Source of the DNA: a virus
DNA length: 64,000 nucleotides
Strand: one strand, 5' to 3'
Virus record (IMG/VR): IMGVR_UViG_3300027833_002114
Location: 1 to 64,000 of that record
Below, piece after piece: positions 156 through 40,640 of the stretch. Under the pieces are notes generated by a model, which was not told the origin of the DNA, made no database searches, and saw only the letters and a program-made list of their open reading frames with translations. Position numbers and translations under genes: made by a program. The first letter of the stretch is position 1, and each line of letters begins with the position of its first letter.

Positions 156-1412
156 ATGATTATAGTAGAAACTAATAAAGAGAAAGACCAATTCCTCGAA
201 TATTGGAATAACGAAGAATCTAAGATTATTCCGATTTGGGAAGATTTGGAAAGGCATCCTATGACAAATGGGTTGTCATTTTTGTATGTCCGATTCTCAA
301 ACTTAGATTTCATACTACCATTTAATCACAATGATTGTGAAAAGTTAGAAATAGATTTATCAACCTCGAATCAAACAAAGTGGATTTGGAATAAAAAAGG
401 CTTTTTACAAACCGATATTAAGGTAAATAACTTAAAAGATGTGCAAACTTCTTTATTCTTTGAAAACTTTAAGATATACCCTCTCGGTGATAAATTAGAG
501 GTTCTAACGAGTTTTTATACCCGAATGGGTATAAGGGATGGTTTGGGTAAATCTCTTCCTATAATGAAGTGGGGTGAGGTACTACGAGGTATTGTAGGTG
601 AATGGGATATAAAACATACAAATCTTTGGGTGGATGAAACGATGATTCCTATTCTTTCAGATATCGAGAGAAAAGGGATACAAGTCGATAGGGAAAAATT
701 TTTTGATAGATGGTCCGATAATAAGAAATCCTTATGGTTTTCACACACATTCACCGAGTACAATCCATACACGATTACATCAAGACCTTCAAACAGGCAT
801 TTAGGTATCAATTATGGTGCATTAAACAAATCCGATGGTAGTAGGGATGTATTCGTTCCAAAGAAAGGAAAGTTGTTCTTACAATTTGATTACGATGCAT
901 ATCATGTTCGAATTATTGGTAAGTTGATTAAATACAAATTACCCGATACTTCGGTTCACCAATGGTTAGCAGACCAATATGGTTGTGATTATGGGGAATC
1001 CAAAGGAAGAACGTTCCGTATCTTATATGGGGGAGTATCCGATGAAGATAGAAAGATACCATTCTTTGATAAGGTAGATACGTTCATTAGAAAGATGCAA
1101 AACGAAGCAGTGAGGAATGGGTATATACAAACTCCAAAAGGAAGAAAAATACCTTTAGGTTGGATTGAAAAACCCAACGCACAAAAGTTTTTTAATTATA
1201 TTCTTCAAGCGACTGAAACTGAATTCAACATTGAGGTACTGAATAAACTGAAGGAAAACGACTTACCTCTTCCTATATTATACACATATGATTCATTTCT
1301 ATTCCAGTTTGATGAATCTGAGGTTGATACTATTAAAAAAATTAAATCCGTTCTCGAAAGTTATGGATTTCCTGTCAAAGCAGATTGGGGAAGTGATTAT
1401 GGAAAAGTTTAA
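156..1412 (+). CDS. Family A (Pol I-like) DNA polymerase, degenerate
   Basis: This 418-residue protein has the Pol I polymerase core. A template-contact segment lies at about residues 208-219 (TSRPSNR). Motif A is FDYDAYHVR with catalytic Asp245. Motif B has Lys283, Phe287 and Tyr291 in Pol I spacing, and motif C is YTYDSF with Asp379. Family A normally has HDE in motif C and Glu in DYSQIELR; here these are YDS and His250. The first ~150 residues look like a shrunken 3'-5' exonuclease fold (NGLSFLYVRF, then FILPFNHND) without the catalytic DxE, and no 5' nuclease is attached. It is far shorter than bacterial Pol I (about 930). Because a complete family B replicase is also encoded, this enzyme probably has an accessory repair or lesion-bypass role. 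Catalytic activity is plausible because both metal-binding Asp residues remain. Confidence 0.85.
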   Translation: MIIVETNKEKDQFLEYWNNEESKIIPIWEDLERHPMTNGLSFLYVRFSNLDFILPFNHNDCEKLEIDLSTSNQTKWIWNKKGFLQTDIKVNNLKDVQTSLFFENFKIYPLGDKLEVLTSFYTRMGIRDGLGKSLPIMKWGEVLRGIVGEWDIKHTNLWVDETMIPILSDIERKGIQVDREKFFDRWSDNKKSLWFSHTFTEYNPYTITSRPSNRHLGINYGALNKSDGSRDVFVPKKGKLFLQFDYDAYHVRIIGKLIKYKLPDTSVHQWLADQYGCDYGESKGRTFRILYGGVSDEDRKIPFFDKVDTFIRKMQNEAVRNGYIQTPKGRKIPLGWIEKPNAQKFFNYILQATETEFNIEVLNKLKENDLPLPILYTYDSFLFQFDESEVDTIKKIKSVLESYGFPVKADWGSDYGKV

Positions 1413-4448: not shown

Positions 4449-4850
4449 ATGCAAACACAGTTATTATGTACATTCACGACAAAAGAAAAATTAAAGGATG
4501 TTCTCCAAGAAATAAGAGAAACTTATCACATTGTCTATAACTATATTTATGTTCTTCAAAATAAGGGTAATTTAGATGAGTTATTTATTACATATAATAT
4601 AGATACATCATTTAGACCAGAAAGACCATTAGGTGATACCATATTGGTTCATAGAAAGAAACAGTCTAATACTCTTTATACCATTAACGCTCTGAACGAA
4701 TTGGTAAAAGAAGAAAATGGTGGTGTATTGGATAAAAAATTCTCAATAGATTGGACAAAGTTCAAAAACTCAATTATCGTTACCAATGTAGAAGGAACAA
4801 AGAAAATTTCTACACGAATCTTCGAGGTAATAGAATTTAACAAGAAATAA
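4449..4850 (+). CDS. Hypothetical protein, 133 residues
   Basis: A small alpha/beta protein without signal peptide or membrane segment. The start is an ATG 23 bases after an AT-only promoter-like motif. Visible segments include TINALNELVKEENGG and a C-terminal strand-rich part ending STRIFEVIEFNKK. I recognise no family. It is single-standing: the next gene has its own promoter, so it may form its own transcription unit. Confidence 0.7.
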   Translation: MQTQLLCTFTTKEKLKDVLQEIRETYHIVYNYIYVLQNKGNLDELFITYNIDTSFRPERPLGDTILVHRKKQSNTLYTINALNELVKEENGGVLDKKFSIDWTKFKNSIIVTNVEGTKKISTRIFEVIEFNKK

Positions 4851-7641: not shown

Positions 7642-8442
7642 ATGGCTTTAGACATTAACGCAATCAGAGGTAGACTGAACAAACTACAAAACACACAACG
7701 TAAATCAGATTCATTATGGAAACCAACACCTGGTAAACACCAAGTGAGAATAGTTCCTTATCAATTCGAAAAGGATAATCCATTTATTGAACTGTACTTT
7801 CACTACAACATTAACAACAAAACTTATTTATCACCACAATCATTTGGTAGACCAGACCCTATTGTAGAGTTTGCGGATAAACTAAAAAGAATGGGAGATA
7901 AAGAAGATTGGAAAGCAGCGAAAGCTATGGAGCCAAAACTTCGTACTTTTGTACCTGTTGTTGTGAGAGGTGAAGAAGGTGAAGGAGTTCGTTTTTGGGG
8001 ATTCGGTAAAACAGTATATCAAGAAATTCTTGGATACATTGCTGACCCAGATTACGGAGATATCACAGACCCAACTAGTGGTAGAGATTTAACAATCGAG
8101 TACAAATCAGCAGAAGAAGCTGGAACTACTTATCCAACTACTACTATTAGAGTTAAACCAAATGCATCTGCAGTAACTGAAGATGAAGCGAAAGTAACTC
8201 AATTCTTGGAATCACAAACTGAAATTACAGATTTATATTCTGAATTATCTTATGATGAATTAAAATCAGTATTAGAAGGATGGTTAAATCCAAGTGGTGA
8301 GGGTGAGAAGGAAACTGTATCTCAAAGTACTTTATCTCAAAGTACTCCATCTCAACCAACACAAACTGCACCAACTACAACTGAATCAGCAAAGAAAACT
8401 GATGATGTAGCTGCGGCATTTGATGACTTATTTAACAACTAA
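7642..8442 (+). CDS. gp32: Single-stranded DNA-binding protein (gp32-like)
   Basis: This 266-residue protein matches the T4 gp32 plan. The N-terminus is basic and Gln/Asn-rich (RGRLNKLQNTQRK), a region used for cooperative filament formation in gp32. The core holds conserved segments such as WKPTPGKHQVRIVPY and LYFHYN, followed by a Ser/Thr/Gln-rich linker from about residue 222. The acidic tail DDVAAAFDDLFNN is the usual docking site for partner proteins. The CxH zinc cluster of T4 gp32 is not evident. It coats unwound DNA at the fork. It is the first gene of an operon with uvsX and the 5'-3' exonuclease, consistent with a replication-recombination module. Confidence 0.9.
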   Translation: MALDINAIRGRLNKLQNTQRKSDSLWKPTPGKHQVRIVPYQFEKDNPFIELYFHYNINNKTYLSPQSFGRPDPIVEFADKLKRMGDKEDWKAAKAMEPKLRTFVPVVVRGEEGEGVRFWGFGKTVYQEILGYIADPDYGDITDPTSGRDLTIEYKSAEEAGTTYPTTTIRVKPNASAVTEDEAKVTQFLESQTEITDLYSELSYDELKSVLEGWLNPSGEGEKETVSQSTLSQSTPSQPTQTAPTTTESAKKTDDVAAAFDDLFNN

Positions 8443-8453
8443 AAACCAATTTA

Positions 8454-9584
8454 ATGGCGAAAAAGAAAGCAGTAAAAGAGCTTGACCTGGCTGATATTCT
8501 AGCAGGTGAGTTGAACAAACAATCGAAAGATTCCAAAGTAGCATTTTTTCTTAATGATGATGAAGCTCCTACAAATGTAGATGGGTGGATATCAACCGGA
8601 TGTGCAATGTTGGATGTAGCTGTTTCCAATCGTCCTTATGGTGGTTTGCCTGTTGGTAGAATAACTGAAATCACAGGATTAGAACAATCAGGAAAATCAT
8701 TAGTATCAGCACACCTCCTTGCGGAAACACAGAAACAAGGTGGTGTTGCTGTTCTTATTGATACAGAAACTGCAGTAAGTAGAGAATTTTTAGAAGCAAT
8801 CGGTGTTGACGTTTCTAAACTTCTTTATGTAACCGCAGATTCGGTTGAACAAATCTTTGATTTCACAGAAACTATCATTGAGAAAGTTAGAGAAACTTCG
8901 AAAGATAAAATAGTAACAATAGTAGTAGATTCAGTTGCGGCTGCTTCTACAACTAATGAATTAGCATCCGATTATAAGAAAGATGGATATGCTACTGATA
9001 AAGCTATTATTATCTCGAAGGCGATGAGAAAGATTACCAATATGATTGGTAGACAGAAAATCTCATTAGTATTCACTAACCAATTAAGACAGAAGATGAA
9101 TGCTATGTTCGGAGACCCTTGGACTACAAGTGGTGGTAAAGCTCTTGCTTTTCACGCATCTGTAAGATTAAGGTTGAAGAATATGGGACAAATCAAGATG
9201 AAGGTAAATGGTAAGGATAAGACAGTGGGAATGAAAGTTCGTTGTCAAGTAGTAAAAAACAGAATGGGACCTCCTTTGAGAGCAGCCGATTTTGAAATCT
9301 ACTTTGACAGAGGGATTGATAACTATGGTTCATGGTTATCTGTTATGAAAGAAAACAAACTAGTAAAACAAGCAGGTGCATGGTATGCATACGTTGATAC
9401 TGAAACTGGTGAAGAATTCAAATTTCAATCAAAAGATTTTATTCCTTTGATGGGTACGAATACTGAACTCAGAGAACAAATTTATAAAAAGATATGTGAA
9501 GAAACAATCTTACAATATAAATCTGATACTTTAGATATTGATGCTATGGAAATAGATACGAAAGGACCTGGAATTAACGAGTAA
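8454..9584 (+). CDS. uvsX: RecA-like recombinase UvsX
   Basis: This 376-residue RecA-family strand-exchange ATPase carries Walker A at residues 75-82 (GLEQSGKS) followed by a hydrophobic helix. Walker B is KIVTIVVDSVAA. The L2-side segment includes FTNQLRQKM and the conserved TSGGKALAFHASVRLRL. It would form filaments on gp32-coated ssDNA for recombination-dependent replication and repair. The 11-base gap after gp32 suggests co-transcription. Length is close to T4 UvsX (about 390). Confidence 0.95.
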   Translation: MAKKKAVKELDLADILAGELNKQSKDSKVAFFLNDDEAPTNVDGWISTGCAMLDVAVSNRPYGGLPVGRITEITGLEQSGKSLVSAHLLAETQKQGGVAVLIDTETAVSREFLEAIGVDVSKLLYVTADSVEQIFDFTETIIEKVRETSKDKIVTIVVDSVAAASTTNELASDYKKDGYATDKAIIISKAMRKITNMIGRQKISLVFTNQLRQKMNAMFGDPWTTSGGKALAFHASVRLRLKNMGQIKMKVNGKDKTVGMKVRCQVVKNRMGPPLRAADFEIYFDRGIDNYGSWLSVMKENKLVKQAGAWYAYVDTETGEEFKFQSKDFIPLMGTNTELREQIYKKICEETILQYKSDTLDIDAMEIDTKGPGINE

Positions 9585-9598
9585 AAACAAAAATCAAT

Positions 9599-9820
9599 AT
9601 GAGTAAATTAGTTACAATGTTGAGATTAAGTGCTGAAGCTGATAAAGCTAAAGCACTTTTATCTCTTGACTTATTGGAAAATAAGGCAGTTGGAATTGGT
9701 GACCATTCTACTGAAGATTTCTACAAAAATGCAGAGGAAGCTCTGATTAAGTTAGTAGATGCTGATGATAGAATAGAAGCATTAGAAAAATACTTTCCTC
9801 CAACAAAAGAAGTTATATAA
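9599..9820 (+). CDS. Conserved small phage protein of unknown function
   Basis: This 73-residue, mostly helical protein contains ENKAVGIGDHSTEDFYKNAE and DADDRIEALEKYF. I recall similar small proteins in other large-phage replication regions, but know of no function. Its stop overlaps the next start (TAATG), so it is translationally coupled to the exonuclease gene and probably accessory to replication. Confidence 0.7.
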   Translation: MSKLVTMLRLSAEADKAKALLSLDLLENKAVGIGDHSTEDFYKNAEEALIKLVDADDRIEALEKYFPPTKEVI

Positions 9821-10875
9821 TGAAAGAACTCTACAAAAACATTTTAGATTCGGTTGAAACCGATAGAGAAACGAATATCAATAGACACAAGAATTCTCGT
9901 GTTTTAATTATTGATGGGTTAAATACATTTATCAGATGTTGGTCATCCATTCCTACAATGAATGAAGATGGTGACCATGTTGGTGGTGCAACTGGTGTTC
10001 TCAAATCGATTGGATATGCAATTAGACAAACTCAACCAACTCGTGTTGTTGTAGTGTTCGATGGGAAAGGTGGTTCTACACAAAGAAAGAAGAAATTTAG
10101 TGGATATAAAGCTCAAAGAGATTCTAACAAACTCAGAGTAAATCGTGCATATAAAGGTATGATGAATGATGAGGATGAAAGAGAATCTATGAAAAGACAA
10201 TACGTTTGGTTAAACGAAATGTTAGATGGGTTACCTCTTACAACTATGATATACGATGGTGTTGAAGCCGATGATATCATGGCTTATATATCCACTAAAA
10301 TTCTCAAGGAAGATGAACAAGCGGTAGTAATGTCAACAGATAAGGATTTCCTTCAACTGATTGATGATACAACTATCGTTTGGTCACCTACCAAAAAGAA
10401 AATGTATAATACCAAAATGGTAAAAGAAGAATATGGTATCGAATCCAAGAATCTTTTATTGTATAGAGTATTGGATGGTGATAAATCCGATAACATACCT
10501 GGTGTTTATGGGTGTGGGATTAAGACCGTAGTAAAAAGATTTCCTGAAATAACAGAAGATAAGAAATTATCAGTAGATGATTTATTAGAACTTGCTGAGA
10601 AAAAATCAGAGGAAACAAAAGGAAAAATAAAAATATACAATGATATTTTAAAATCCAAAAGACAAATCTTACTTAATGAAGATTTGATGCAACTACATGA
10701 TGTTGATATTAGTGGTACTATAAAGATGAAAACTTTAGATAGGTTTAACGAGCCAATCACTCCACTAAATAAAATGGATTTTATGAAAATTCTACTAAAA
10801 TACAAAGTAATCGGAAACTTTGGAGATATCAATGATTGGTTAAAAACCACTTTTGGTAATTTAATAACAGAATAA
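9820..10875 (+). CDS. rnh: 5'-3' exonuclease / RNase H (FEN family)
   Basis: The 351-residue protein shows the FEN-family acidic active site. LIIDGLNTFIR near residue 30 gives the first metal-binding Asp, VVVFDGKGGSTQRKKKF the second with the basic gateway, and GVEADDIMAY with STDKDFLQL the next group. VLDGDKSDNIPGVYGCGIKT completes the site and the helix-hairpin-helix DNA clamp. The arrangement matches T4 RNase H, which removes RNA primers and flaps during lagging-strand maturation. It begins at an ATG overlapping the previous stop. The C-terminal ~100 residues are variable, as is usual. Confidence 0.92.
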   Translation: MKELYKNILDSVETDRETNINRHKNSRVLIIDGLNTFIRCWSSIPTMNEDGDHVGGATGVLKSIGYAIRQTQPTRVVVVFDGKGGSTQRKKKFSGYKAQRDSNKLRVNRAYKGMMNDEDERESMKRQYVWLNEMLDGLPLTTMIYDGVEADDIMAYISTKILKEDEQAVVMSTDKDFLQLIDDTTIVWSPTKKKMYNTKMVKEEYGIESKNLLLYRVLDGDKSDNIPGVYGCGIKTVVKRFPEITEDKKLSVDDLLELAEKKSEETKGKIKIYNDILKSKRQILLNEDLMQLHDVDISGTIKMKTLDRFNEPITPLNKMDFMKILLKYKVIGNFGDINDWLKTTFGNLITE

Positions 10876-10928: not shown

Positions 10929-12290
10929 ATGGCAGAACAAATAGATACATTATCAAAATTCGGACAATCATTTCAATCGAAGGTATTATCCGCATTATTG
11001 ACCGATGGTAAATTTCTTGATACAATTAGTGAAATAACAACTGCAAAGTTCTTTGAGAACGATGCAAATAAATGGATTGTATCTGAAATACTAAATTATC
11101 ATTCGGAGTATAAAAAACCACCAACATTAGATGTATTCAAAGCTCAACTATCAAAGGTTGATAATGAAATATTAAAGAAAACAACAGTAGAACAACTAAG
11201 ACACGTTTTTACAAATGTTGGTAATGTAGATTTAGATTATATAAAAGATGAATTCAAAAGCTTTTGTATTAATCAAAATTTAAAAGGAGTAATCTTACAA
11301 TCAGTTGATTTGTTACAAGCTGGTTCGTATGATAGAATAAAAGAATTAGTAGATTCGGCTATGAAAGTTGGTAATGAAACCAATTTAGGATTAAATTATA
11401 TCGAAGATTTTGATTTAAGAGCCGAGGAAATAAATAGAACAACAGTTCCAACTAAATGGGAGCCAATTAATGCACTGATGGATGGTGGATTAGGACCTGG
11501 TGAACTTGGAGTAGTTGTAGCACCTTCGGGTGTAGGAAAAACATGGATTCTCACCGCAATAGGTGCAGAAGCTGTTCGGAGAGGTTTGAGTGTAGTACAT
11601 TACACAATGGAATTATCAGAGCACTACGTTGGTGCTAGATATGATACTGTGTTTACTGGCATTCCTTCCACCGATTTGAAGGAAAAGAAAGATGAGGTCA
11701 AAGCAAAAATCACGAATCTTAATGGGAAATTATTGATAAAATATTTTCCTCCAAAGGGTGTTTCAGTAAAAAGGTTACAGCAACATATTGAGAAAATGGT
11801 TACGTTAGATAACAAACCCGATGTTATCATTGTGGATTATGCTGACCTCTTACTCTCCCACTCTAATAAGTCAGACTCTACTTATGCAGAGCAAGGAGGG
11901 GTATATATTGACCTTCGTGGAATGAGTGGCGAATTGGAAATACCAATTTGGACTGCATCTCAAACTAACCGTTCAGCAATTGATTCCGAAGTTATTGAAG
12001 CAGATAAGATTGCAGATTCTTATGCTAAAGTAATGAATGCCGATTTTATTATGAGTGTTAGTAGAAAATCAAAAGATAAATTGAATGATACTGCAAGAGC
12101 TCATATTATGAAAAACAGATTCGGACCAGATGGAATTACTTTCCCTATGAAAATGAATACAAACACAGGTTACATGGAAGTTTATGATGGAACATCACCT
12201 GATGGGGTAATTGCAACAAAACAATCTGCAAGTGGACAATTAGAAACTAAAAAACTCCTACATAAAAAGTATGTAGAAAATATGGGATAG
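10929..12290 (+). CDS. gp41: Replicative DNA helicase (DnaB/gp41-like)
   Basis: This 453-residue RecA-fold helicase has a helical N-terminal domain (~1-150) and a motor domain. Walker A is APSGVGKT at residues 198-205. Walker B is PDVIIVDYADLL, followed by ASQTNRSA with the sensor Gln, and the arginine-finger region is KNRFGPDG near the end. It would form a hexamer that unwinds the fork ahead of the replicase. Size equals that of DnaB and T4 gp41. No primase gene is recognised in this window. It shares a transcript with the fucosyltransferase-like gene, which follows after one base. Confidence 0.93.
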   Translation: MAEQIDTLSKFGQSFQSKVLSALLTDGKFLDTISEITTAKFFENDANKWIVSEILNYHSEYKKPPTLDVFKAQLSKVDNEILKKTTVEQLRHVFTNVGNVDLDYIKDEFKSFCINQNLKGVILQSVDLLQAGSYDRIKELVDSAMKVGNETNLGLNYIEDFDLRAEEINRTTVPTKWEPINALMDGGLGPGELGVVVAPSGVGKTWILTAIGAEAVRRGLSVVHYTMELSEHYVGARYDTVFTGIPSTDLKEKKDEVKAKITNLNGKLLIKYFPPKGVSVKRLQQHIEKMVTLDNKPDVIIVDYADLLLSHSNKSDSTYAEQGGVYIDLRGMSGELEIPIWTASQTNRSAIDSEVIEADKIADSYAKVMNADFIMSVSRKSKDKLNDTARAHIMKNRFGPDGITFPMKMNTNTGYMEVYDGTSPDGVIATKQSASGQLETKKLLHKKYVENMG

Positions 12291-22014: not shown

Positions 22015-23241
22015 ATGATAGAAGATATACTAAATAAATACAAAAAGGGTACTTACGAAGGTGAGTACCCAACTGTATCTGAAGAAGATTTTACTTTACT
22101 CAAGAAAAACTTTGATAAAGATAAAGTAAAAGAAGCATTTGCAGAATTATTCATGGAGTATGAAATACCCTATGCAGAAATTAGTGAAAAAAATGCATAT
22201 GATGATTTCTTATCACTTAAGGGTTTCCGGTGGAGCCAGTATCTAAAGGAAGGACAATGGTTTCCACGAAAAGCAGCGGAATCTAAGTATCCACTAACAT
22301 ACGATGGAAAACAACAATACTTTTCTCGTATCAATACAGGTAACAGAGCATCTAATTACTTTCAACAACACAACAGATGGAGTGTAGATGGTTCAGTTTC
22401 ACCAGGTCCAAAAAGAACTTGGGAAACAAAAGCATTTATGGTATCATTAATGGGTGCAGCTTATTCTTTAAAATTACCACAAGTTGGTAAAAAAGAATTA
22501 AGAACAATGATTGGATTGAGAAAATACATATGTGCTCAGTTCAAACCAAATGTAGCGAAGATGTTCTATGATATGAACAATGCTAAAACTGTACTTGATT
22601 TCTCAATGGGATGGGGTGATAGATTAGCAGGTGCATTTTCAAGTGAAACAGTTGAACATTATGTAGGGTTAGACCCTCGTAAAGAAAATCATCCGTTCTA
22701 TGAACAACAAAGAGATTTTTATACTAAACATACATCTTTCTTTGAAACACCTACTAAAACAAACTTCTATGAATCACCAGCAGAAGATTTTGATTACTCT
22801 GAATATAACGAGTACTTTGATGTAGTATTTACATCACCTCCATATTTCTCAGTAGAAAGATATTCACATGATGATACTCAGAGTTGGGTAAGATATAAAA
22901 ACATAAACGATTGGAACAAGAACTTTTTACATACTACTTTAGGTAAGATTATACCAACAGTAAAGAAAGGTGGTATCATTGCAGTGAACATAGCGGATGT
23001 ATATGCTAGTTCCAAAGGTGATAAGGGATGGTTAGAGATTTGTAATCCAATGATTGATTATCTTACATCACAAGGATTAACTTACAAAGGTTGTATTGGT
23101 ATGGAAATGGCAAAGAGACCTAATAGTGGTGGAGCAGGAACTGCTAAAGATGATGGACAGTATTCAGAAGAAAGTTTAAAATTAGCAGAAGAAACAAAAA
23201 ATCAAACTTTTTGTGAACCTGTTTGGATATGTCAAAAATAA
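22015..23241 (+). CDS. SPPY-motif DNA methyltransferase-like protein (copy 1)
   Basis: The 408-residue protein has an AdoMet-binding motif I in an unusual form, VLDFSMGWGDRLAG (residues ~193-206), and the amino-methyltransferase catalytic motif IV FTSPPYF (272-278), diagnostic of N6-adenine/N4-cytosine methylation. After it comes ERYSHDDTQSW, also present in the proteins at 28663 and 30319 as QYSQDE.QSF. The N-terminal 190 residues have no known domain and may read the target. No restriction enzyme gene is nearby, so self-protection or base modification without cleavage is likely. Confidence 0.8.
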   Translation: MIEDILNKYKKGTYEGEYPTVSEEDFTLLKKNFDKDKVKEAFAELFMEYEIPYAEISEKNAYDDFLSLKGFRWSQYLKEGQWFPRKAAESKYPLTYDGKQQYFSRINTGNRASNYFQQHNRWSVDGSVSPGPKRTWETKAFMVSLMGAAYSLKLPQVGKKELRTMIGLRKYICAQFKPNVAKMFYDMNNAKTVLDFSMGWGDRLAGAFSSETVEHYVGLDPRKENHPFYEQQRDFYTKHTSFFETPTKTNFYESPAEDFDYSEYNEYFDVVFTSPPYFSVERYSHDDTQSWVRYKNINDWNKNFLHTTLGKIIPTVKKGGIIAVNIADVYASSKGDKGWLEICNPMIDYLTSQGLTYKGCIGMEMAKRPNSGGAGTAKDDGQYSEESLKLAEETKNQTFCEPVWICQK

Positions 23242-23277: not shown

Positions 23278-25794
23278 TTGTATCAAAACATTTATTACCA
23301 ACGAGAAAGAAATTTAATCCATCTTTGGGATGACCAAAGAGGATATTCTGCATTTCCATACACACGATATGCTTATGAACCTGCACAAAGAGGTGAGTAT
23401 AAATCTATTTATGGAGATAGTTTATCCAAAATTTATAAGTTTAAGAAAGATGACCCAAATTTATTTGAGTCAGATGTACCTGAAACTACACGAGCATTAG
23501 TAGATATGTATTCAGATAAAGATGATATATCAGACGGTCATGTTATCTTAACATATGATATTGAGTGTGAAATGATAAGTGGATTACCAGACCCACTAGA
23601 AGCTAAGAATGAATTAACTTCAATTGCACTTCACGATTCTGCAACAGACCAGTATTGGGTATTGGTTGTTGATAAGGAAGGTGGTATGAAAGAAAAGACT
23701 ACTGATAAGTGTATCGTATTCCCATTCCAAGATGAACGAGATATGTTAGCTAAGTATTTGGAGTTATATGAGATGATTAATCCCTCAATCGTTACCGGTT
23801 GGAATATTGATTTCTTTGATACACCAATGTTATATAATCGTATAAAACGATTAATGGGAGAAAAACAAGCAAATAGATTATCACCAATCGGACAATGTTT
23901 CTGGTCACCTTATCGTAAAAGATACTTTATGGCAGGTGTATCTTATTTAGATTACATTACACTTTATAAGAATTACAATTATGGTGAACTACCAAACTAT
24001 CGATTGGATAGTGTTGCACAAAAAGAATTGGGTAGAGGAAAGATTGAGTATGATGGAAACTTGGACCAATTATTTAGAGATGATATTGAAAAGTTTATCG
24101 AATATAACTTAGTAGATGTTGAGTTAGTAGTTGAGTTTGATAAAAAACTTCAGTTCATCGATTTGTGTAGAGGTATCTGTCATGCGGGACACGTTCCATA
24201 TGAAGATTTCGTTTACTCATCAAAGTATCTTGAAGGAGCAATGTTAACTTATCTTAGAAGAAAGGGATTGGTTGCACCAAACAAACCAGCAGATAGGCAA
24301 GAACGAATGCAAGAAATTCGTGATAATAATCAAGAGAAATTTATTGGAGCATATGTAAAAGCTCCAATTGTTGGAAAATATGATTGGATATATGATTTAG
24401 ATTTAACATCTCTATATCCTTCTATTATTATGACCCTCAACATTTCACCCGAATCAAAGATTGGTAAGATTCAAGATTGGGATGCAAATAAATTTGTTAA
24501 AGGGGAAGTTGATACTTATTATATCGGAGATAATACCATATCTAAAGAAAATTTAAGAAAGTATTTAGATGATTCCAAATTCTCAGTTGCATCGAATGGT
24601 GTACTTTACCGAACCGATACCGTTGGTTGTATACCTGGTATTCTTGACTTGTGGTTTCAAAAACGAGTTGAGTATAAAAATGAAATGAAAAAATATGGGA
24701 AAGCAGGAGATGATGAAAAATATGCCTTCTATCACAAACGTCAGTTGGTTCAGAAAATTTTACTTAACTCTTTATATGGTGTGCTTGGGCTTCCTGCCTT
24801 TCGGTTCTATGATGTTGATAATGCTACCGCTGTTACCACGACAGGACAGACAGTTATTAAATCAACTGCGGATATGGCTAACATCAAGTACAACAAGGAG
24901 CTTAATACTCCTGATTTGGATTCTAACATATACATCGATACTGATTCTGTATTCTTCTCAGCAGTTCCTTTAATGGATAAACGATTTCCTAATTGGAAAG
25001 ATGAAGAACAAGATACAATTGCTGGTTATGTAAATGATATTGCAGAAGAGATGCAAGATTACCTTAATGATTTCTATGATATACTTTCAACAAAGGTTTT
25101 AAATGTTGATAAAGATAAACACAGATTAGAGATTAAGAAGGAGTATGTTGCAAAAGCAGGATTGTGGGTAGCAAAGAAACGATATGCACAATGGATTATA
25201 TCAGATAATGGTGTACCAGTAGATAAGTTAGATGTAAAAGGATTAGATGTAAAACGTTCATCATTCCCAAAAGCATTCCAAGAATGTATGGGTACAGTTC
25301 TTATTGATATTCTAAAAGGTAAAACCGAAGAAGAGATTTCAGATTATGTTTTAGATTTCAAAAAGAATATGGTAAATAGACCTACATCCGAGATTGCAAA
25401 GAACTCAGCAGTAAAGAATCTTAAAAAATATATGCCGAAAGGTAAAAGAGAACGATTCTCTATGATGAAAGGAACACCTGCTCATGTTAAAGCAGCAATT
25501 CTATATAATGATTGTTTAAAACATTTCAATGCTCCTTTCAATTATGAACCATTAAAAAATGGTGATAAAGTTAAGTGGGTATATCTTAAAGATAATCCAT
25601 TGGGAATTGATGGTTTAGCATTCACAGGTTATAAAGACCCACCAGAGATTGAGAAGTTTTTAGCTACTTACATTGACCACAACAAAATCTTCGAAAGAGA
25701 ACTAGGACATAAACTACAAGTTTTCTTTGATGCAGTTGGTTGGGGTGAAGTAATAAGTGAACAAAGAACTGCTGAAAAATTCTTCAGTTTTTAG
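23278..25794 (+). CDS. gp43: Family B DNA polymerase (replicase)
   Basis: This 838-residue polymerase has an intact proofreading exonuclease: Exo I TYDIECEM, Exo II VTGWNIDFFD and Exo III YNLVDVELV. The polymerase motifs are A DLTSLYPSI, B KILLNSLYG and C YIDTDSVF, all with catalytic residues. Size and order are as in T4 gp43 (898), so it is the main replicase. No ATG occurs upstream or early in the frame, and the TTG at 23278 immediately after the promoter gives an N-terminus (YQNIYYQRERNLIHLW) that aligns with the start of related polymerases. A TTG start may lower expression. Confidence 0.95.
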   Translation: MYQNIYYQRERNLIHLWDDQRGYSAFPYTRYAYEPAQRGEYKSIYGDSLSKIYKFKKDDPNLFESDVPETTRALVDMYSDKDDISDGHVILTYDIECEMISGLPDPLEAKNELTSIALHDSATDQYWVLVVDKEGGMKEKTTDKCIVFPFQDERDMLAKYLELYEMINPSIVTGWNIDFFDTPMLYNRIKRLMGEKQANRLSPIGQCFWSPYRKRYFMAGVSYLDYITLYKNYNYGELPNYRLDSVAQKELGRGKIEYDGNLDQLFRDDIEKFIEYNLVDVELVVEFDKKLQFIDLCRGICHAGHVPYEDFVYSSKYLEGAMLTYLRRKGLVAPNKPADRQERMQEIRDNNQEKFIGAYVKAPIVGKYDWIYDLDLTSLYPSIIMTLNISPESKIGKIQDWDANKFVKGEVDTYYIGDNTISKENLRKYLDDSKFSVASNGVLYRTDTVGCIPGILDLWFQKRVEYKNEMKKYGKAGDDEKYAFYHKRQLVQKILLNSLYGVLGLPAFRFYDVDNATAVTTTGQTVIKSTADMANIKYNKELNTPDLDSNIYIDTDSVFFSAVPLMDKRFPNWKDEEQDTIAGYVNDIAEEMQDYLNDFYDILSTKVLNVDKDKHRLEIKKEYVAKAGLWVAKKRYAQWIISDNGVPVDKLDVKGLDVKRSSFPKAFQECMGTVLIDILKGKTEEEISDYVLDFKKNMVNRPTSEIAKNSAVKNLKKYMPKGKRERFSMMKGTPAHVKAAILYNDCLKHFNAPFNYEPLKNGDKVKWVYLKDNPLGIDGLAFTGYKDPPEIEKFLATYIDHNKIFERELGHKLQVFFDAVGWGEVISEQRTAEKFFSF

Positions 25795-25865: not shown

Positions 25866-27871
<2,006 letters not shown>

Positions 27872-27949: not shown

Positions 27950-28663
27950 ATGGAAAAACAATCATTAAGCAGGTTCGTATCAAAGTACAACCTATCAGGT
28001 CTAGTAGAATCTGTAAAGTGGGAATCAAAAGATGGTTCTCTAACTACTTCTTTCATCTCTGATGATAAATCAGTTTTAGGAAGTGTAAGTATGAAAGAGT
28101 TTGATAGTTCAGATGCATCATTTGGTGTATATGATACAACCAAACTAACAAAGATGTTATCGGTTCTCGGTAACGATGTAGATTTCTCAATGAATGATAT
28201 TGATGGGAAACCAGTATCTTTGAAATTCAAAGATAAATCAACATCTGTAAATTATATGTTAGCTGATTTATCAGTTATCCCTAATGTACCAGATTTGAAA
28301 CAATTACCAGATTTTAATGTAGAAATTAAATTGGATTCAAGTTTCATCTCTACGTTCATTAAAGCAAAGGGTGCATTGCAAGATGAGAACAATTTTACAT
28401 TTACTTGTAAAGAAGGTAATGGTCAGATTATCTTAGGATATTCTAATATTAACACAAACAGAATTAATATTGATGTTGATTGTGTATGTGAAGGTGATGT
28501 AGACCCAATTTCATTTTCTGCAACATACCTAAAAGAGATATTAGTTGCAAACAAAGAAGCAACTGATGCAACTTTAAAGATTTCTTCTCAAGGATTAGCC
28601 CACATTTCCTTTTCAATTGACAATTATGAATCAAATTACTTTCTTGTAGAAATTCAATCTTAA
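27950..28663 (+). CDS. gp45: Sliding clamp (gp45-like)
   Basis: The 237-residue protein is beta-rich with two repeats of the clamp fold, similar in size to T4 gp45 (228). The C-terminal half carries ISFSATYLKEILVANKEA, followed by LKISSQGLAHISF and the final strand YFLVEIQS, all typical for gp45/PCNA-like clamps. It would form a ring that tethers polymerase B and, in T4, also activates late transcription. Its stop overlaps the start of the methyltransferase-like gene (TAATG). Confidence 0.85.
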   Translation: MEKQSLSRFVSKYNLSGLVESVKWESKDGSLTTSFISDDKSVLGSVSMKEFDSSDASFGVYDTTKLTKMLSVLGNDVDFSMNDIDGKPVSLKFKDKSTSVNYMLADLSVIPNVPDLKQLPDFNVEIKLDSSFISTFIKAKGALQDENNFTFTCKEGNGQIILGYSNINTNRINIDVDCVCEGDVDPISFSATYLKEILVANKEATDATLKISSQGLAHISFSIDNYESNYFLVEIQS

Positions 28664-30315
28664 TGAGCACTAAATATTTTTACGAACAAAGTAAATTTTC
28701 TGAGTTCAAATCTAAAAAAACTTACCATGAGTTACTTGATATGACTGATGGTGAGTTTGAGGATTGGGCAAGGTTAATCCGTAAGGAGATTGTCGATGCG
28801 TGGGATATTGATGGGCAACCTCCTGTTAAAGGAAAAACAGAAGAACAAATTATCAGCCATTTTGGTAAATTGAAAAAAGATGAATGTAATTTCTTTATTA
28901 AAGATGATGAAGATAAAGAATCATTGGGGATTATAAAAAACTTTAATAAAAGTCAAAGTGTAGTAAATCAGTTTTTTCCAACAATGTTGAAAACTAGAAT
29001 TTCTATTGGTGAATCAGCTGATGGCGGAACATCAATTTATGATTATTTTGCAGAAGATAGTTTAGAAGGTGGTTTCATTAAAACAATGGCAAGAGCGGTT
29101 AAGAGAGATTCCATGTATGCATGGTGTCGTTCATTAACAACTGTTAAAGATGAGAATCCTTTTTGGAATGGACAAACACCATATAAGTTCGTAAAGGATG
29201 TATATGATGGTAAGATATTCAAAGGCAAGTGGGAAAACTATGATATTGTACTTCACAGAACAACTGAAGCTTCTATTAGAAAATACGGACCTTTAAATGA
29301 AACTAAACAAACGTATGGAACAATCCTATTCTTAACTGGTAAACAAGTAAGAAGATTAGTAAAAGAAGGATTTCTAAACAAACGTCAGATTTCAAATATT
29401 GGTGATATACCTAATTCAAAAACTTTAAAAAATGGTAAAGTTGTTAACTATGTTTACAATGTAAGGTGGTATGAAAAATCAGATGGTATTTTCCCTAAGA
29501 TTATACAAGCATTTAGATTAGGTTTAGGACAACCTGCTGTAAACTTTCCTGCATTAACTGCAAAATGGATTTACGAAAACTATACTAATCATATTGAACA
29601 AGAAGAACCATTACATATTTATGATTCATCGAGTGGTTGGGGTGGTAGAATTGCAGGAGCAATGAGTAGTAGAAAGAAAGTTCACTACGTTGGTACAGAC
29701 CCTAATCCAGATAACTTTATTGATGATTTGGGTATTTCTCGATATGAATACATGGCAAAGTTCTATAATGATAAAGTAGTTGATACTCATTCAGAAGCAA
29801 TGAGTAACTTCTTTACAGTAGAAAAGCAAGGTAACACCTATGAGTTATTTCAAGATGGTTCAGAGTTAATTAAAAACAATCCTGAGTTCCAAAAGTATAA
29901 AGGTAAATTAGATATTTCATTTACTTCACCTCCTTACTTTAATAGAGAACAATATTCACAAGATGAGAACCAATCGTTCAAAGCTTATGGTGAGTATGAT
30001 GATTGGAGAGATAACTTTTTAAGACCTACTCTTACAACAATCTATGAATATCTTAAAAACGATAGGTATATCCTATGGAATATTGCTGATATCAAAATTG
30101 GTAAATCAATTTACTTTCCACTAGAACAAGATTCGATTGATATTCTTCAATCACTTGGTGGTGAATATAAAGGTAAACTTAAGATGACAATGGCAGCAAT
30201 GATTGGTGCAAATGTAAACAAACGAGAATCAATTGAAACAGGTATGAAAAACTTAGTACAAGTTGGAACTACTTGGTACAAATATGAACCTATATTCGTA
30301 TTTCATAAAAAGTAA
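28663..30315 (+). CDS. SPPY-motif DNA methyltransferase-like protein (copy 2)
   Basis: The 550-residue protein has motif I as YDSSSGWGGRIAGAMSS (~320-336) and motif IV as SFTSPPYFNREQYS (~422-435). Thus it belongs with the proteins at 22015 and 30319. A long N-terminal region with EFEDWARLIRKE, VNQFFPTMLKT and ENPFWNGQ is shared only with the 30319 protein and could hold target recognition. Clamp-coupled translation (TAATG with gp45) suggests it acts at replicating DNA, for example modifying newly made phage DNA. Motif I has Ser residues where typical amino-methyltransferases have DPFxGxG. Confidence 0.75.
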   Translation: MSTKYFYEQSKFSEFKSKKTYHELLDMTDGEFEDWARLIRKEIVDAWDIDGQPPVKGKTEEQIISHFGKLKKDECNFFIKDDEDKESLGIIKNFNKSQSVVNQFFPTMLKTRISIGESADGGTSIYDYFAEDSLEGGFIKTMARAVKRDSMYAWCRSLTTVKDENPFWNGQTPYKFVKDVYDGKIFKGKWENYDIVLHRTTEASIRKYGPLNETKQTYGTILFLTGKQVRRLVKEGFLNKRQISNIGDIPNSKTLKNGKVVNYVYNVRWYEKSDGIFPKIIQAFRLGLGQPAVNFPALTAKWIYENYTNHIEQEEPLHIYDSSSGWGGRIAGAMSSRKKVHYVGTDPNPDNFIDDLGISRYEYMAKFYNDKVVDTHSEAMSNFFTVEKQGNTYELFQDGSELIKNNPEFQKYKGKLDISFTSPPYFNREQYSQDENQSFKAYGEYDDWRDNFLRPTLTTIYEYLKNDRYILWNIADIKIGKSIYFPLEQDSIDILQSLGGEYKGKLKMTMAAMIGANVNKRESIETGMKNLVQVGTTWYKYEPIFVFHKK

Positions 30316-30318
30316 TTA

Positions 30319-31947
30319 ATGCATTATTACCAACGAAATAAATTTGTAGATTTTAAATCAAATATTCTTTTCCATGAATTACTTGATACTAGTGATTCCG
30401 AATTCGAAGATTGGGCAAAGACTTTGCGTAAAGAAGTTACTGAACAATGGGATGAGTTCGGAAATCCACCTGTTATCGGAAAAAATCATGATAAGATTAT
30501 TACATCACTTGGTAAATTAAAATCAAATGATTGTGATTTTATTGAAAAAGATTTAAGTGGTGATGATGAATCATTAGGTATCATTAAAAACTTTAACAAA
30601 GATGCATCTGTTGTAAATCAGTTCTTTCCTACAATGTTGAAAACTAAAATATCAAGTGGAAAAACTGCTGAAGGTGGTTTATCTATTTATGATTATTTTG
30701 GTGACCCTACAATGGAAGAGCAGTTTATTAAGATAATGAAGAGAGCAGTACGAAGAGATTCTATGTATGTTTGGTCTCGCTCACTTGTTAATAAAAAAGA
30801 TGAGAATCCTTTTTGGAATGGTCAGAGTGGATACGAATTTATCAAAGATGTTAAAGATGGAAAAGTATTCACAGGTAAATGGGAAAACTACGATATCTAT
30901 TTAACGAAATCAAAAGATAGTACATTTGATAACTACGGAACATTTAATGATGAGTATGTTGGGTTTACAAACATATATCTAACATCAGATGAAGTAAATG
31001 AATTAGTAGATAATGATTACTTAAATTCAAGACAAGTTTCTAACATAAATAAAATAGAAGAATCTTCAACATCTAAAGTGGGGAAGGTAACGAAATATTC
31101 TTATATGGTTAGATGGTATGATAAAACTGAAGGATTATTTCCTAATATGTTAAGAGTAATACGTTTAAGTTGTGGACAAGCAGCTGTAAACTTTCCTTCA
31201 TTAACTGCAAAGTGGATTTATGAAAATTATACTAATCATATTGATTCAACTGAACCTATAACTGTTTATGATTCATCTAGTGGATGGGGTGGTAGAATTA
31301 TAGGTGCAATGAGTTCTCGTAAGAAAATTCATTATGTTGGTACAGACCCTAATCCTGATAACTTCTTAGATAATGAAGGAATTTCTCGTTATGAGTATGT
31401 AGCAGATTTTTACAACAAGAATTGTATAGATAATCATTCGGATAAACTTACATCATTCTTTGATGTTGAAACACAATCTAATACATATGAACTCTTTCAA
31501 GATGGTTCAGAGTTAATTAAAAACAATCCTGAGTTTCAGAAGTATAAAGGTAAAGTTGATATATCATTTACATCACCACCATATTTTAATAGAGAACAAT
31601 ATTCACAAGATGAAAAGCAGTCTTTCAAAGCATATTCTGAGTACGAAGATTGGAGAGATAATTTCTTAAAACCAACCTTAAAAACAATTTACGAATACTT
31701 AAATAAAGATAGATATATTTTGTGGAATATTGCAGATATTAAAATAGGTGAAAGTACTTACTATCCATTGGAACAAGATTCAATTGATATATTAAATCAA
31801 CTTGGGTGTGAGTATAAAGGAAAGCTTAAAATGTTAATGACACGAATGGTTGGATTAGACCCTTCCAAGAGTGGAATTAAAAACGCAGTAAAACATAATG
31901 GGAAATCATATAAATTTGAACCTATATTCGTATTCCATAAAAAATAA
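30319..31947 (+). CDS. SPPY-motif DNA methyltransferase-like protein (copy 3, tandem duplicate)
   Basis: This 542-residue protein is a clear duplicate of the preceding one, starting three bases after its stop. The N-terminal pattern EFEDWAKTLRKE, the block VNQFFPTMLKTKIS, motif I (YDSSSGWGGRIIGAM) and motif IV (SFTSPPYFNREQYSQ) all align. Some stretches are near identical, including at DNA level around the segment NTYELFQDGSELIKNNPEFQ. The central region (~195-260) differs most, as would be expected if the copies recognise different targets. Both copies retain all visible motifs, so neither looks decayed. Confidence 0.75.
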   Translation: MHYYQRNKFVDFKSNILFHELLDTSDSEFEDWAKTLRKEVTEQWDEFGNPPVIGKNHDKIITSLGKLKSNDCDFIEKDLSGDDESLGIIKNFNKDASVVNQFFPTMLKTKISSGKTAEGGLSIYDYFGDPTMEEQFIKIMKRAVRRDSMYVWSRSLVNKKDENPFWNGQSGYEFIKDVKDGKVFTGKWENYDIYLTKSKDSTFDNYGTFNDEYVGFTNIYLTSDEVNELVDNDYLNSRQVSNINKIEESSTSKVGKVTKYSYMVRWYDKTEGLFPNMLRVIRLSCGQAAVNFPSLTAKWIYENYTNHIDSTEPITVYDSSSGWGGRIIGAMSSRKKIHYVGTDPNPDNFLDNEGISRYEYVADFYNKNCIDNHSDKLTSFFDVETQSNTYELFQDGSELIKNNPEFQKYKGKVDISFTSPPYFNREQYSQDEKQSFKAYSEYEDWRDNFLKPTLKTIYEYLNKDRYILWNIADIKIGESTYYPLEQDSIDILNQLGCEYKGKLKMLMTRMVGLDPSKSGIKNAVKHNGKSYKFEPIFVFHKK

Positions 31948-36334: not shown

Positions 36335-36580
36335 ATGAAAAGCACAAAAAAAACTAATAGAATAGAGTTATTATATCAATATGGTGTAATATACTTCGGT
36401 ACAGCATTAATGATGCTTTCTCCATTCATTATCGATTCAATTTATGGAAAGATGGGAATGGTTGTGGGGTTAATCCTCATTACAGTACAAACACAAAGAA
36501 CAAAACAATATAATTTATCCTTACTTAATTTAGTAGGAATCACTGGTTACATATATTCACTTATAAAAACATGGTTATGA
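36335..36580 (+). CDS. Small membrane protein, 81 residues
   Basis: After a basic start (KSTKKTNR), two hydrophobic segments at about residues 18-33 and 40-48, plus a third weaker one near the C-terminus, predict an inner-membrane protein. It begins three bases after the terminator T-tract. Its stop overlaps the start of the secreted nuclease (ATGA), suggesting joint translation. Function is unknown. Confidence 0.6.
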   Translation: MKSTKKTNRIELLYQYGVIYFGTALMMLSPFIIDSIYGKMGMVVGLILITVQTQRTKQYNLSLLNLVGITGYIYSLIKTWL

Positions 36581-37359
36581 AAAAATTATTAATATTAGTT
36601 TTAATCTTATTTACCTTAACATCGTTTTCAACAACGATGTTTTGGGGTAAGATAGGACATAGAACAGTTGGTGAAATTGCACAAAGACAATTAACACTAA
36701 CAACAGAACAACGAGTTAATGAAATTTTAGATGGACAAACACTTGCAGTTGCAAGTACTTGGGCAGATGAGATGAGGAGTAATCCTGATTTTGATAAATT
36801 TTCAACTTGGCATTATGTTAATCTTCCAATTGATAAAAATTATGAGGAAGTAGAACATACACAAGAAAATGTAGTAAAAATGATTAATACTGCAATTCCT
36901 ATTTTACAATCACCATCTGCATCAAAAGAGATGAAAGCGTTTTGGTTAAAGTATTTGGTTCATATGGTAGGAGATTTGCACCAACCTTTACATACTGGAA
37001 GATTTGAAGATTATGGTGGTAGTAAAATCAAAGTAAACTTCAAAGGAAGAAAAGGAGCAGAGAATCAAACGAATCTTCATGTATTATGGGATACCGATAT
37101 GATTGATGATTACAAGATGAGTTATACTGAATATGCTGATAAATTACAAAACCAATTTAAAGATACAGTAGTGGAACAAGGAAATGCTATCAAGTGGGCA
37201 AATGAATCACATGAGTATGTATCTAAGATTTATGAAACAAAAGATGGTTCATATTTATCATATGATTATGTATATGAGAATCTACCAATCGTAGATGAGA
37301 GATTATATTTTGCTGGAATCAGATTGGGTAACCTTTTAAATGAGATATTTGGAGAATGA
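36577..37359 (+). CDS. Secreted S1/P1-type nuclease
   Basis: This protein of about 260 residues has a signal peptide ending near FSTTMF. The mature part starts WGKIGHRTVGEIA; in this family the new N-terminal Trp and the His of GH bind the zinc cluster. Other ligands are visible in STWADEMR, WHYVNLP, VHMVGDLHQPLH and NLHVLWD. S1/P1 enzymes cut single-stranded DNA and RNA and remove 3' phosphates, acting outside the cytoplasm. The ATG at 36577 (ATGA overlap) is preferred to one at 36571. It is the second exported nuclease in the window, of an unrelated fold. Confidence 0.9.
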   Translation: MKKLLILVLILFTLTSFSTTMFWGKIGHRTVGEIAQRQLTLTTEQRVNEILDGQTLAVASTWADEMRSNPDFDKFSTWHYVNLPIDKNYEEVEHTQENVVKMINTAIPILQSPSASKEMKAFWLKYLVHMVGDLHQPLHTGRFEDYGGSKIKVNFKGRKGAENQTNLHVLWDTDMIDDYKMSYTEYADKLQNQFKDTVVEQGNAIKWANESHEYVSKIYETKDGSYLSYDYVYENLPIVDERLYFAGIRLGNLLNEIFGE

Positions 37360-38164: not shown

Positions 38165-39118
38165 ATGGCATTTTTCGAAGATAATAACACACAACCAAAT
38201 AAGGTAGCAAATTCTCTATGGGTAGAGAAGTACAGACCTTCTAAACTAACAGAATACGTTGGTAATGAACATTTAAAGGATAAGGTAAAGGATTATCTTG
38301 AAAGTGGAGAAATCCCTCATCTTTTATTCTTCGGTAAAGCTGGTACAGGTAAAACAACATTAGCTAAGTTAATTGTAAATTCAATTGATTGTGACCATAT
38401 CATTATAAATGCATCTGATGAAAATAATGTAGATACCGTTCGTAATAAAGTAAAAGGATTTGCTTCAACTGTTGGTTTCAAAGATATGAAAATAATCATA
38501 CTTGATGAGTTTGATTATATGACACCAAATGCACAAGCACTTTTAAGAAACTTGATGGAAACGTTCTCAAAACATTGTAGATTCATTCTAACTTGTAATT
38601 ATGTTGAGAAAGTAATCTCACCAATTAGAAGTAGAACACAAGAGTTTCAGATTGTACCTCCAACTAAAAAAGATGTTGCAGTTCAAATATCACAGATTTT
38701 AGGTAGAGAATCTATTAGTTTCCAACCAGCAAACCTTGTACCTATCATTGATAGTTCATATCCTGATATTAGAAAGATTATCAATACTTGCCAGTTGAAT
38801 TCATCTAAGGGAGAATTAAAAGTTGATACAACCTCTGTAATTGATGCAGATATTAAATCAAAGGTAGTAGATATTCTTAAAGGTTCTGATGCAAAAGCCA
38901 ATAAATGGAAAAATATCAGACAAGCAGTTGCAGATGCGAGAGTACAAGATTTCACAGAACTTTATACGTTCTTATATGAAAAAGTAGAAGTTTATGGTGG
39001 TACAAATACCTCAAACATAATACTAATCTTATCAGAATCACAACACAAAGATGCATTGGTAGTAGATAAAGAAATTACCTTTATGAGTTGTATAATTCAA
39101 ATAGTTGGTATATTATGA
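38165..39118 (+). CDS. gp44: Clamp loader large subunit (gp44-like AAA+ ATPase)
   Basis: The 317-residue RFC-type ATPase starts LWVEKYRPSKLTEYVGNE. It has Walker A FFGKAGTGKTT, Walker B IIILDEFDYM, sensor 1 FILTCNYVEK and the arginine-finger SRC-like box PIRSRTQEF. Length matches T4 gp44 (319). In T4, four gp44 subunits and one gp62 open the gp45 ring and load it at primer ends; the gp62-like partner is at 40188. Its stop overlaps the start of a 33-residue gene. Confidence 0.94.
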   Translation: MAFFEDNNTQPNKVANSLWVEKYRPSKLTEYVGNEHLKDKVKDYLESGEIPHLLFFGKAGTGKTTLAKLIVNSIDCDHIIINASDENNVDTVRNKVKGFASTVGFKDMKIIILDEFDYMTPNAQALLRNLMETFSKHCRFILTCNYVEKVISPIRSRTQEFQIVPPTKKDVAVQISQILGRESISFQPANLVPIIDSSYPDIRKIINTCQLNSSKGELKVDTTSVIDADIKSKVVDILKGSDAKANKWKNIRQAVADARVQDFTELYTFLYEKVEVYGGTNTSNIILILSESQHKDALVVDKEITFMSCIIQIVGIL

Positions 39119-39931: not shown

Positions 39932-40198
39932 ATGGCAAAGATTATAGGAATGAATAATGGTGGAAATACACCCCCACCTCAACAACCAAAGATAGATTTA
40001 TCTAAGGCAACAGAAATGAAATGTGAAGAATGTGGTGGTACTGTGTTTATACAAGGTACTAAGTTCTTGAAGATTTCAAAGATAGTAACAGGTACACCAC
40101 AAGATGCAATCATACCAGTAGAGTTATATCTATGTGGTGATTGTGGTGAAATAAACAAAGAGTTATTACCAAAAGAATTACAGAATAATGGCAACTAG
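39932..40198 (+). CDS. Zinc-ribbon protein, 88 residues
   Basis: Two CxxC knuckles, MKCEECGGTVF (about residues 29-39) and LYLCGDCGEIN (about 69-79), form a zinc ribbon. Between them is KFLKISKIVTGTPQDAIIPV, a pattern I associate with small conserved proteins of other large phages. Zinc ribbons bind nucleic acid or proteins; its link with the clamp-loader genes hints at replication or transcription. Its end overlaps the gp62-like gene by 11 bases. Confidence 0.75.
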   Translation: MAKIIGMNNGGNTPPPQQPKIDLSKATEMKCEECGGTVFIQGTKFLKISKIVTGTPQDAIIPVELYLCGDCGEINKELLPKELQNNGN

Positions 40199-40640
40199 AA
40201 CACTATTTGACCATATAACAAATATAACTTCAGTTCAAAATCCAAAGTATTGGGATAGTTTAGAAGATGCTGATAAGAAAACATGGAGTAACTATATGGT
40301 ACATCGTTTTCTTTCTATGAATCCTGATTGGATAGAAGTTCTTTCAGAGATACAACCATACACACAAGTTTTAGAACCGAAACAATTATATCTTGCTCTT
40401 ATCGGTATATTACCAAAAGGTAGAAGATATTTGAAATATACAAAAGGTAAGAAAGCAAACAAGTACGAATCTTGGTTAATTGATTTACTTATACAAGATT
40501 TTAATTGTTCAAGTATAGAAGCAGAAGATTATTGTGAAATACTTTATGCAACTAAAGAAGGTAGAGAAAATATAAAGTTCATTTGTGAAAAGTATGGTAT
40601 TGATAAGAAACAAATAACTAAATTAAAGTTGAAACTTTAG
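40188..40640 (+). CDS. gp62: Clamp loader small subunit (gp62-like)
   Basis: The 150-residue helical protein resembles T4 gp62 (187) in several places: SNYMVHRFLSMNPDWIE aligns with the SKFMVENALSQFPE region, and ALIGILPKGRRYLKYTK with its AAVPRGKRYGKWAK segment, followed by a helix ending LLIQDFNCSSIEAEDYCEIL. gp62 is the non-ATPase fifth subunit of the loader. The genes for gp44 and gp62, adjacent in T4, are separated here by about 1.1 kb and a promoter. Assignment rests on these patches, not on full alignment. Confidence 0.75.
   Translation: MATRTLFDHITNITSVQNPKYWDSLEDADKKTWSNYMVHRFLSMNPDWIEVLSEIQPYTQVLEPKQLYLALIGILPKGRRYLKYTKGKKANKYESWLIDLLIQDFNCSSIEAEDYCEILYATKEGRENIKFICEKYGIDKKQITKLKLKL

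Follow-up and report, generated by a model that had tools for sequence, protein, structure and literature searches.

Does a phage that already encodes a full family B DNA polymerase carry a second, Pol I-type polymerase gene as a decaying relic, or as an enzyme with a distinct and maintained design? The window analysed here (64,000 nt, bases 1–64000 of a 68,542-base IMG/VR record) raises this question near its left end, where an intact open reading frame (ORF) with an ATG start encodes a protein of 418 aa (Table 1). A preliminary description, made from the sequence, had called its product a degenerate Pol I-type polymerase lying beside a full family B replicase.

The Pol I-type fold is borne out by several comparisons. 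The protein matches phrog_17 (DNA polymerase) with an E-value of 5e-13, and Pfam DNA_pol_A (PF00476) with an E-value of 2e-5, which is under the curated cut-off. An HMM–HMM alignment of a family profile (214 rows) with a five-sequence Pol A profile, using Klenow as master, gives an E-value of 6.6e-14 across residues 194–416. Structure prediction and active-site alignment had been proposed as checks, and the AlphaFold2 (AF2) model (mean pLDDT 91.2) has a Klenow-type fold that superimposes on the Bst Pol I large fragment (VIA Z 25.9, rmsd 3.6, 389 aligned residues), with the Pol I alignment spanning residues 1–418. A single-sequence search of the PDB returned one match, DpoZ of vibriophage phiVC8 (7pbk). 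Using tblastn, we found homology along nearly the whole length to the divPolA1 protein of Flavobacterium phage immuto (27% identity, 91% coverage, E = 2e-27). The product almost certainly belongs to divPolA1, a family of family A polymerases found in phages.

Table 1. Coordinates of divPolA1, its motifs and associated genes in the window
Feature	Position	Strand	Basis or remark
divPolA1, exo-dead thumb-truncated family A polymerase, 418 aa	156..1412	+	Pfam, PHROG, HMM–HMM, AF2; matches divPolA1 of PMC11348598
Motif A, DYDAYHVR	888..911	+	His codon (E710 position) 903–905; Tyr codon (I709 position) 900–902
Motif B, KGRTFRILYG	1002..1031	+	K758, F762 and Y766 equivalents
Motif C, YDS	1287..1295	+	H881Y, D882 retained, E883S
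133-aa protein, downstream of divPolA1 almost always	4449..4850	+	Co-occurrence; AF2 pLDDT 91.8; no family or clear fold match
Single-strand DNA-binding protein (SSB)	7642..8442	+	phrog_1192, E 6.5e-21
UvsX-like recombinase	8454..9584	+	phrog_97, E 8.4e-75
5′-3′ exonuclease (FEN-type), separate from polymerase	9820..10875	+	PF02739, E 1.3e-32
DnaB/gp41-like replicative helicase	10929..12290	+	phrog_19, E 1.5e-78
Full family B DNA polymerase (PolB), probable replicase	23278..25794	+	phrog_262, E 2.4e-184; PF00136, E 9.6e-33
GroEL-like chaperonin adjoining PolB	26186..27871	+	phrog_5725, E 5.1e-175
Clamp loader subunit (gp44-like)	38165..39118	+	phrog_168, E 1e-82
Clamp loader subunit (gp62-like)	40188..40640	+	phrog_225, E 5e-15

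The active site was compared residue by residue with Klenow. In motif A (FDYDAYHVR), D245 aligns with D705, Y249 with I709 and H250 with E710, confirming the earlier observation that His occupies the position of the motif A Glu. The motif B residues K283, F287 and Y291 correspond to K758, F762 and Y766, and the motif C residues Y378, D379 and S380 to H881, D882 and E883. Further equivalents are R210 (R668), H268 (H734), N347 (N845) and Q351 (Q849), while R754 has no aligned partner. Consequently, most metal-, triphosphate- and primer-contacting residues are retained, and several of the changes sit at positions of sugar and base selection. The replacement of HDE by YDS is present as described earlier, but its Ser is not unusual by itself, because the active phage enzymes DpoZ (PMC8599892) and Tt72 pol (PMC9324360) also carry Ser at the E883 position.

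In Pol I, E710 is the ribonucleotide (steric) gate, with help from F762 (PMC13228545), and the Klenow I709F variant is a mutator with normal synthesis activity (PMC7708058). As divPolA1 replaces E710 and has Tyr or Phe at the I709 position, altered nucleotide selection is a reasonable expectation. Loss of the Glu could let in ribonucleotides. Alternatively, the imidazole of the His could serve as the gate itself, so that sugar selection stays strict, or the Tyr/His pair could make a different, ring-type gate. A ring-type gate is that of the family B and Y polymerases.

The most drastic change, which the preliminary description did not mention, is the near-total loss of the thumb. The segment joining the exonuclease-like domain to the palm is 29 aa in divPolA1 and 116 aa in Klenow; the fingers interval is 30 aa compared to 46 aa. 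Overall, the protein is about 185 aa shorter than the E. coli or Bst Pol I large fragment. The exonuclease fold itself remains, and we found no conserved DEDD acid columns across the family, in agreement with the earlier claim that the acidic residues are lost. The corresponding family columns are mostly Asn or Lys, although the window copy has D30, E32 and D128 at some MAFFT-aligned DEDD positions in an uncertain register. Because H34 and K81 are almost invariant within this inactive domain, it may have taken on a new function.

We then have a protein that keeps the Klenow-type fold without the gate Glu (His250 in its place) and without a thumb subdomain. Shared with the E. coli and Bst enzymes are the catalytic Asp residues and the equivalents of K758, F762, Y766, R668, N845 and Q849; different are E710H, I709Y, H881Y, E883S, the unaligned R754 and the non-conserved exonuclease acids. 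DpoZ has the same Asp-Ser in motif C, but it retains the gate Glu, the thumb and an active exonuclease, and it works with 2-aminoadenine DNA. The divPolA2 proteins (barbaviruses, Vibrio phage 1.063.O AUR84708) are likewise thumbless, exonuclease-less extra Pol A proteins beside a regular polymerase. They are not the same solution, however, because their apparent motif A (DFKAFE) retains the Glu and their motif C reads FDE. According to PMC11348598, divPolA2 also has an unrelated N-terminal domain and a variable gene context; the window model has no such domain and aligns to Pol I throughout.

A search for the same variant in other phages, also suggested at the outset, yielded 211 unique homologues from viral contigs, which form three well-sampled clades and one deep branch. 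The window copy (36–97% identical to its IMG/VR relatives) belongs to a clade distinct from that of immuto and its relatives. A search with LR756508 as query found no viral relatives. Large phages carry the gene in many cases, and several of these phages have links to Bacteroidota hosts. D245, H250, K283, F287, Y291 and D379 show no variation among the unique homologues that cover each position. The R668 equivalent is nearly invariant and the N845 and Q849 equivalents are retained, while position 380 is Ser or Ala, and Gly once. The comparison of His at the E710 position with other Pol A families covered four reference enzymes.

Since some search patterns included motif A, we examined less biased subsets. 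His occupies the E710 position in all 162 homologues retrievable without a motif A pattern and in 48 of the 48 fetched via the neighbouring gene. In the latter set, the D705, K758, F762, Y766 and D882 equivalents also hold; position 247 is variable (D, N, Q, E, V), and only Tyr or Phe occurs at position 249. On Bacteroidota MAG contigs, two divergent members have a motif A that reads DISAYH.

A sequencing error or a decaying pseudogene would be a ready explanation if the altered motifs stood within one sequence. The same motifs in 211 unique homologues, a dN/dS of 0.13–0.21 (purifying selection) and the intact ORF refute this explanation, and its probability is negligible. On sequence grounds, divPolA1 is a conserved design with no decay, and the label 'degenerate' is misleading because the motifs are fixed family-wide and under purifying selection.

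The divPolA1 family was named by Yutin et al. in 2024 from 14 phages, including immuto (PMC11348598). That paper describes a dead exonuclease, a truncated thumb, retained palm residues and a replication-gene context; divPolA1 coexists there with PolA, PolB or PolC genes that adjoin chaperonins, and the authors inferred an involvement in replication only. The window copy has the same features: non-conserved exonuclease acids, a truncated thumb and the palm Asp residues, together with a position upstream of replication genes and the status of an extra polymerase, the regular one being near GroEL. A full-text literature search on divPolA1 found only this paper and its preprint, and the papers found contain no report of DNA polymerase activity for any member. 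The fixed Tyr/Phe-His of motif A and the 133-aa neighbour are absent from the text of PMC11348598. As far as that literature extends, two features are new here: an aromatic-His pair that does not vary (Tyr/Phe for I709, His for E710) and the 133-aa companion downstream of divPolA1.

The genome contains a T4-like replisome, and NrdB and NrdA are among its genes. The gene order divPolA1, 133-aa protein, SSB, UvsX, FEN, helicase is kept in the clades of the window copy, LR756508 and Mel-JY01. The operon order recurs in the immuto clade, where most members show no detected UvsX match. This regional synteny supports a role in replication or recombination generally and does not single out bypass. 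The PolB gene is in the same record as divPolA1, as the preliminary description had said, but about 22 kb away and not adjacent. A regular polymerase is present in 25 of 27 large divPolA1 records (PolB in 18, full-length PolA in 7), and the two records without one (130 and 114 kb) are possibly incomplete. A DnaG-type primase occurs in 13/13 related records longer than 150 kb; the window record (68.5 kb), itself probably a fragment, gave no match to one. The data therefore argue against divPolA1 as the replicase, a role we reject, and, for the records longer than 150 kb, against divPolA1 as the only primase; priming is disfavoured as its purpose.

Other features of these genomes were recorded alongside. 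A PolC-type alpha subunit was detected in LR756508 only. A search for the T4 gp59 helicase loader gave no match, and its control gave no match anywhere either; a promoter and terminator scan gave counts not above shuffles. Right after divPolA1, the window encodes a predicted DNA/RNA non-specific endonuclease (1448–2059; PF01223, E = 8e-17) whose N-terminus resembles that of a lipoprotein; the gene is found in part of the clade. Three ORFs around PolB (22015–23241, 28663–30315 and 30319–31947) all match phrog_12517 and, weakly, DNA methyltransferases; they are possibly paralogous methyltransferases. An S1/P1-type nuclease, unexpected in a phage, lies at 36571–37359 (PF02265, E = 1.7e-62). Besides divPolA1, a full PolA and DnaG, the immuto genome (L085–L093) has a 7-deazaguanine pathway and DpdA.

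The 133-aa protein follows divPolA1 closely. In the phage collection, the six records that contain it are precisely those in which divPolA1 is present over most of its length, and loci found via the 133-aa protein have divPolA1 upstream in all 48 cases with enough sequence. It is present in 26 of the 27 large divPolA1 records. The exception (G004; locus L128, 8000–17284) is a 130-kb record, also without a PolB match, that carries divPolA1 and a NucA-like nuclease with no detectable partner within 8 kb downstream. The small protein is more conserved than divPolA1 itself (51, 42 and 38% identity to LR756508, immuto and Mel-JY01, compared to 31, 27 and 26%), and purifying selection on it is strong wherever it could be measured. 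C7, N50, H68, K70, N74, YTIN (77–80) and W102 are invariant. Pfam gave no family (best E = 0.0024, a weak match that is not consistent between members), a PDB sequence search gave no relative, and a fold search with the model gave no clear match (Foldseek best E = 0.23, VIA Z about 6). We infer a functional link between the two proteins.

Our leading explanation, held tentatively and at somewhat less than an even chance, is that divPolA1 is an active, distributive and error-prone auxiliary polymerase whose nucleotide selection is altered and which works alongside the PolB replicase. Retention of both catalytic Asp residues suggests activity, the missing thumb suggests low processivity, the non-conserved exonuclease acids suggest that proofreading is absent, and Tyr/Phe in place of I709 together with His in place of E710 suggest low fidelity and altered selection. 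Possibly assisted by the 133-aa partner, such an enzyme would serve in gap filling, lesion bypass or the extension (D-loop synthesis) of recombination intermediates that the downstream SSB, UvsX, FEN and helicase would generate. Counting against activity, a thumbless polymerase may hold DNA poorly, and by alignment R754 and H881 are lost. A more elaborate proposal, which we consider rather improbable, is a two-part polymerase in which the 133-aa subunit would replace the thumb or load the enzyme on UvsX/SSB intermediates. Its Glu gate would be rebuilt as an aromatic-His pair like the ring-type gate of families B and Y, making it a dedicated bypass or D-loop polymerase.

Three other mechanisms would give divPolA1 a different task. 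It could be one half of a split Pol I that replaces Okazaki RNA primers together with the FEN-type exonuclease, its selectivity little altered. Both exonuclease domains are present in the window FEN, and a FEN lies in the divPolA1 operon at nearly all sufficiently long immuto and Mel-JY01 clade loci. Ordinary gap filling, however, needs neither the loss of the thumb nor fixed changes at I709 and E710. Moreover, FEN is a commonplace part of T4-type replisomes, and T4 does without Pol I. We regard this mechanism as unlikely, though worth serious consideration.

Alternatively, the protein could be a catalytically dead Pol A fold with a structural or regulatory role in the replisome, such as binding DNA ends or primer termini. 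The missing thumb and exonuclease, the altered H881, E883 and R754, and a pseudo-exonuclease domain with its own almost invariant residues are all consistent with this reading. Yet both catalytic Asp residues and most dNTP- and primer-contacting residues are invariant, and a dead enzyme would need neither, which makes it quite improbable. A primase-like or RNA polymerase-like derivative that polymerizes ribonucleotides is a still more doubtful prospect, even though the steric-gate Glu is replaced in every homologue and single-subunit RNA polymerases have a motif C similar to Asp-Ser. PMC11348598 also discusses the thumbless divPolA2 as a possible RNA polymerase, but divPolA2 is a different solution. 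The F762 equivalent remains Phe in divPolA1, the His or Tyr at its gate could exclude rNTPs itself, and a DnaG-type primase is already encoded in each of the longest records.

Pol A enzymes strongly conserve the steric-gate Glu, and throughout the large natural family divPolA1 this position is always His. Its thumb is gone, yet its catalytic residues are kept under selection. The family offers a convenient system for testing how a Pol A enzyme can rebuild its selection of sugar and base, and the 133-aa companion is a concrete handle on it. The finding raises the question of why phages that already have a full replicase and a primase retain another polymerase in the recombination operon.
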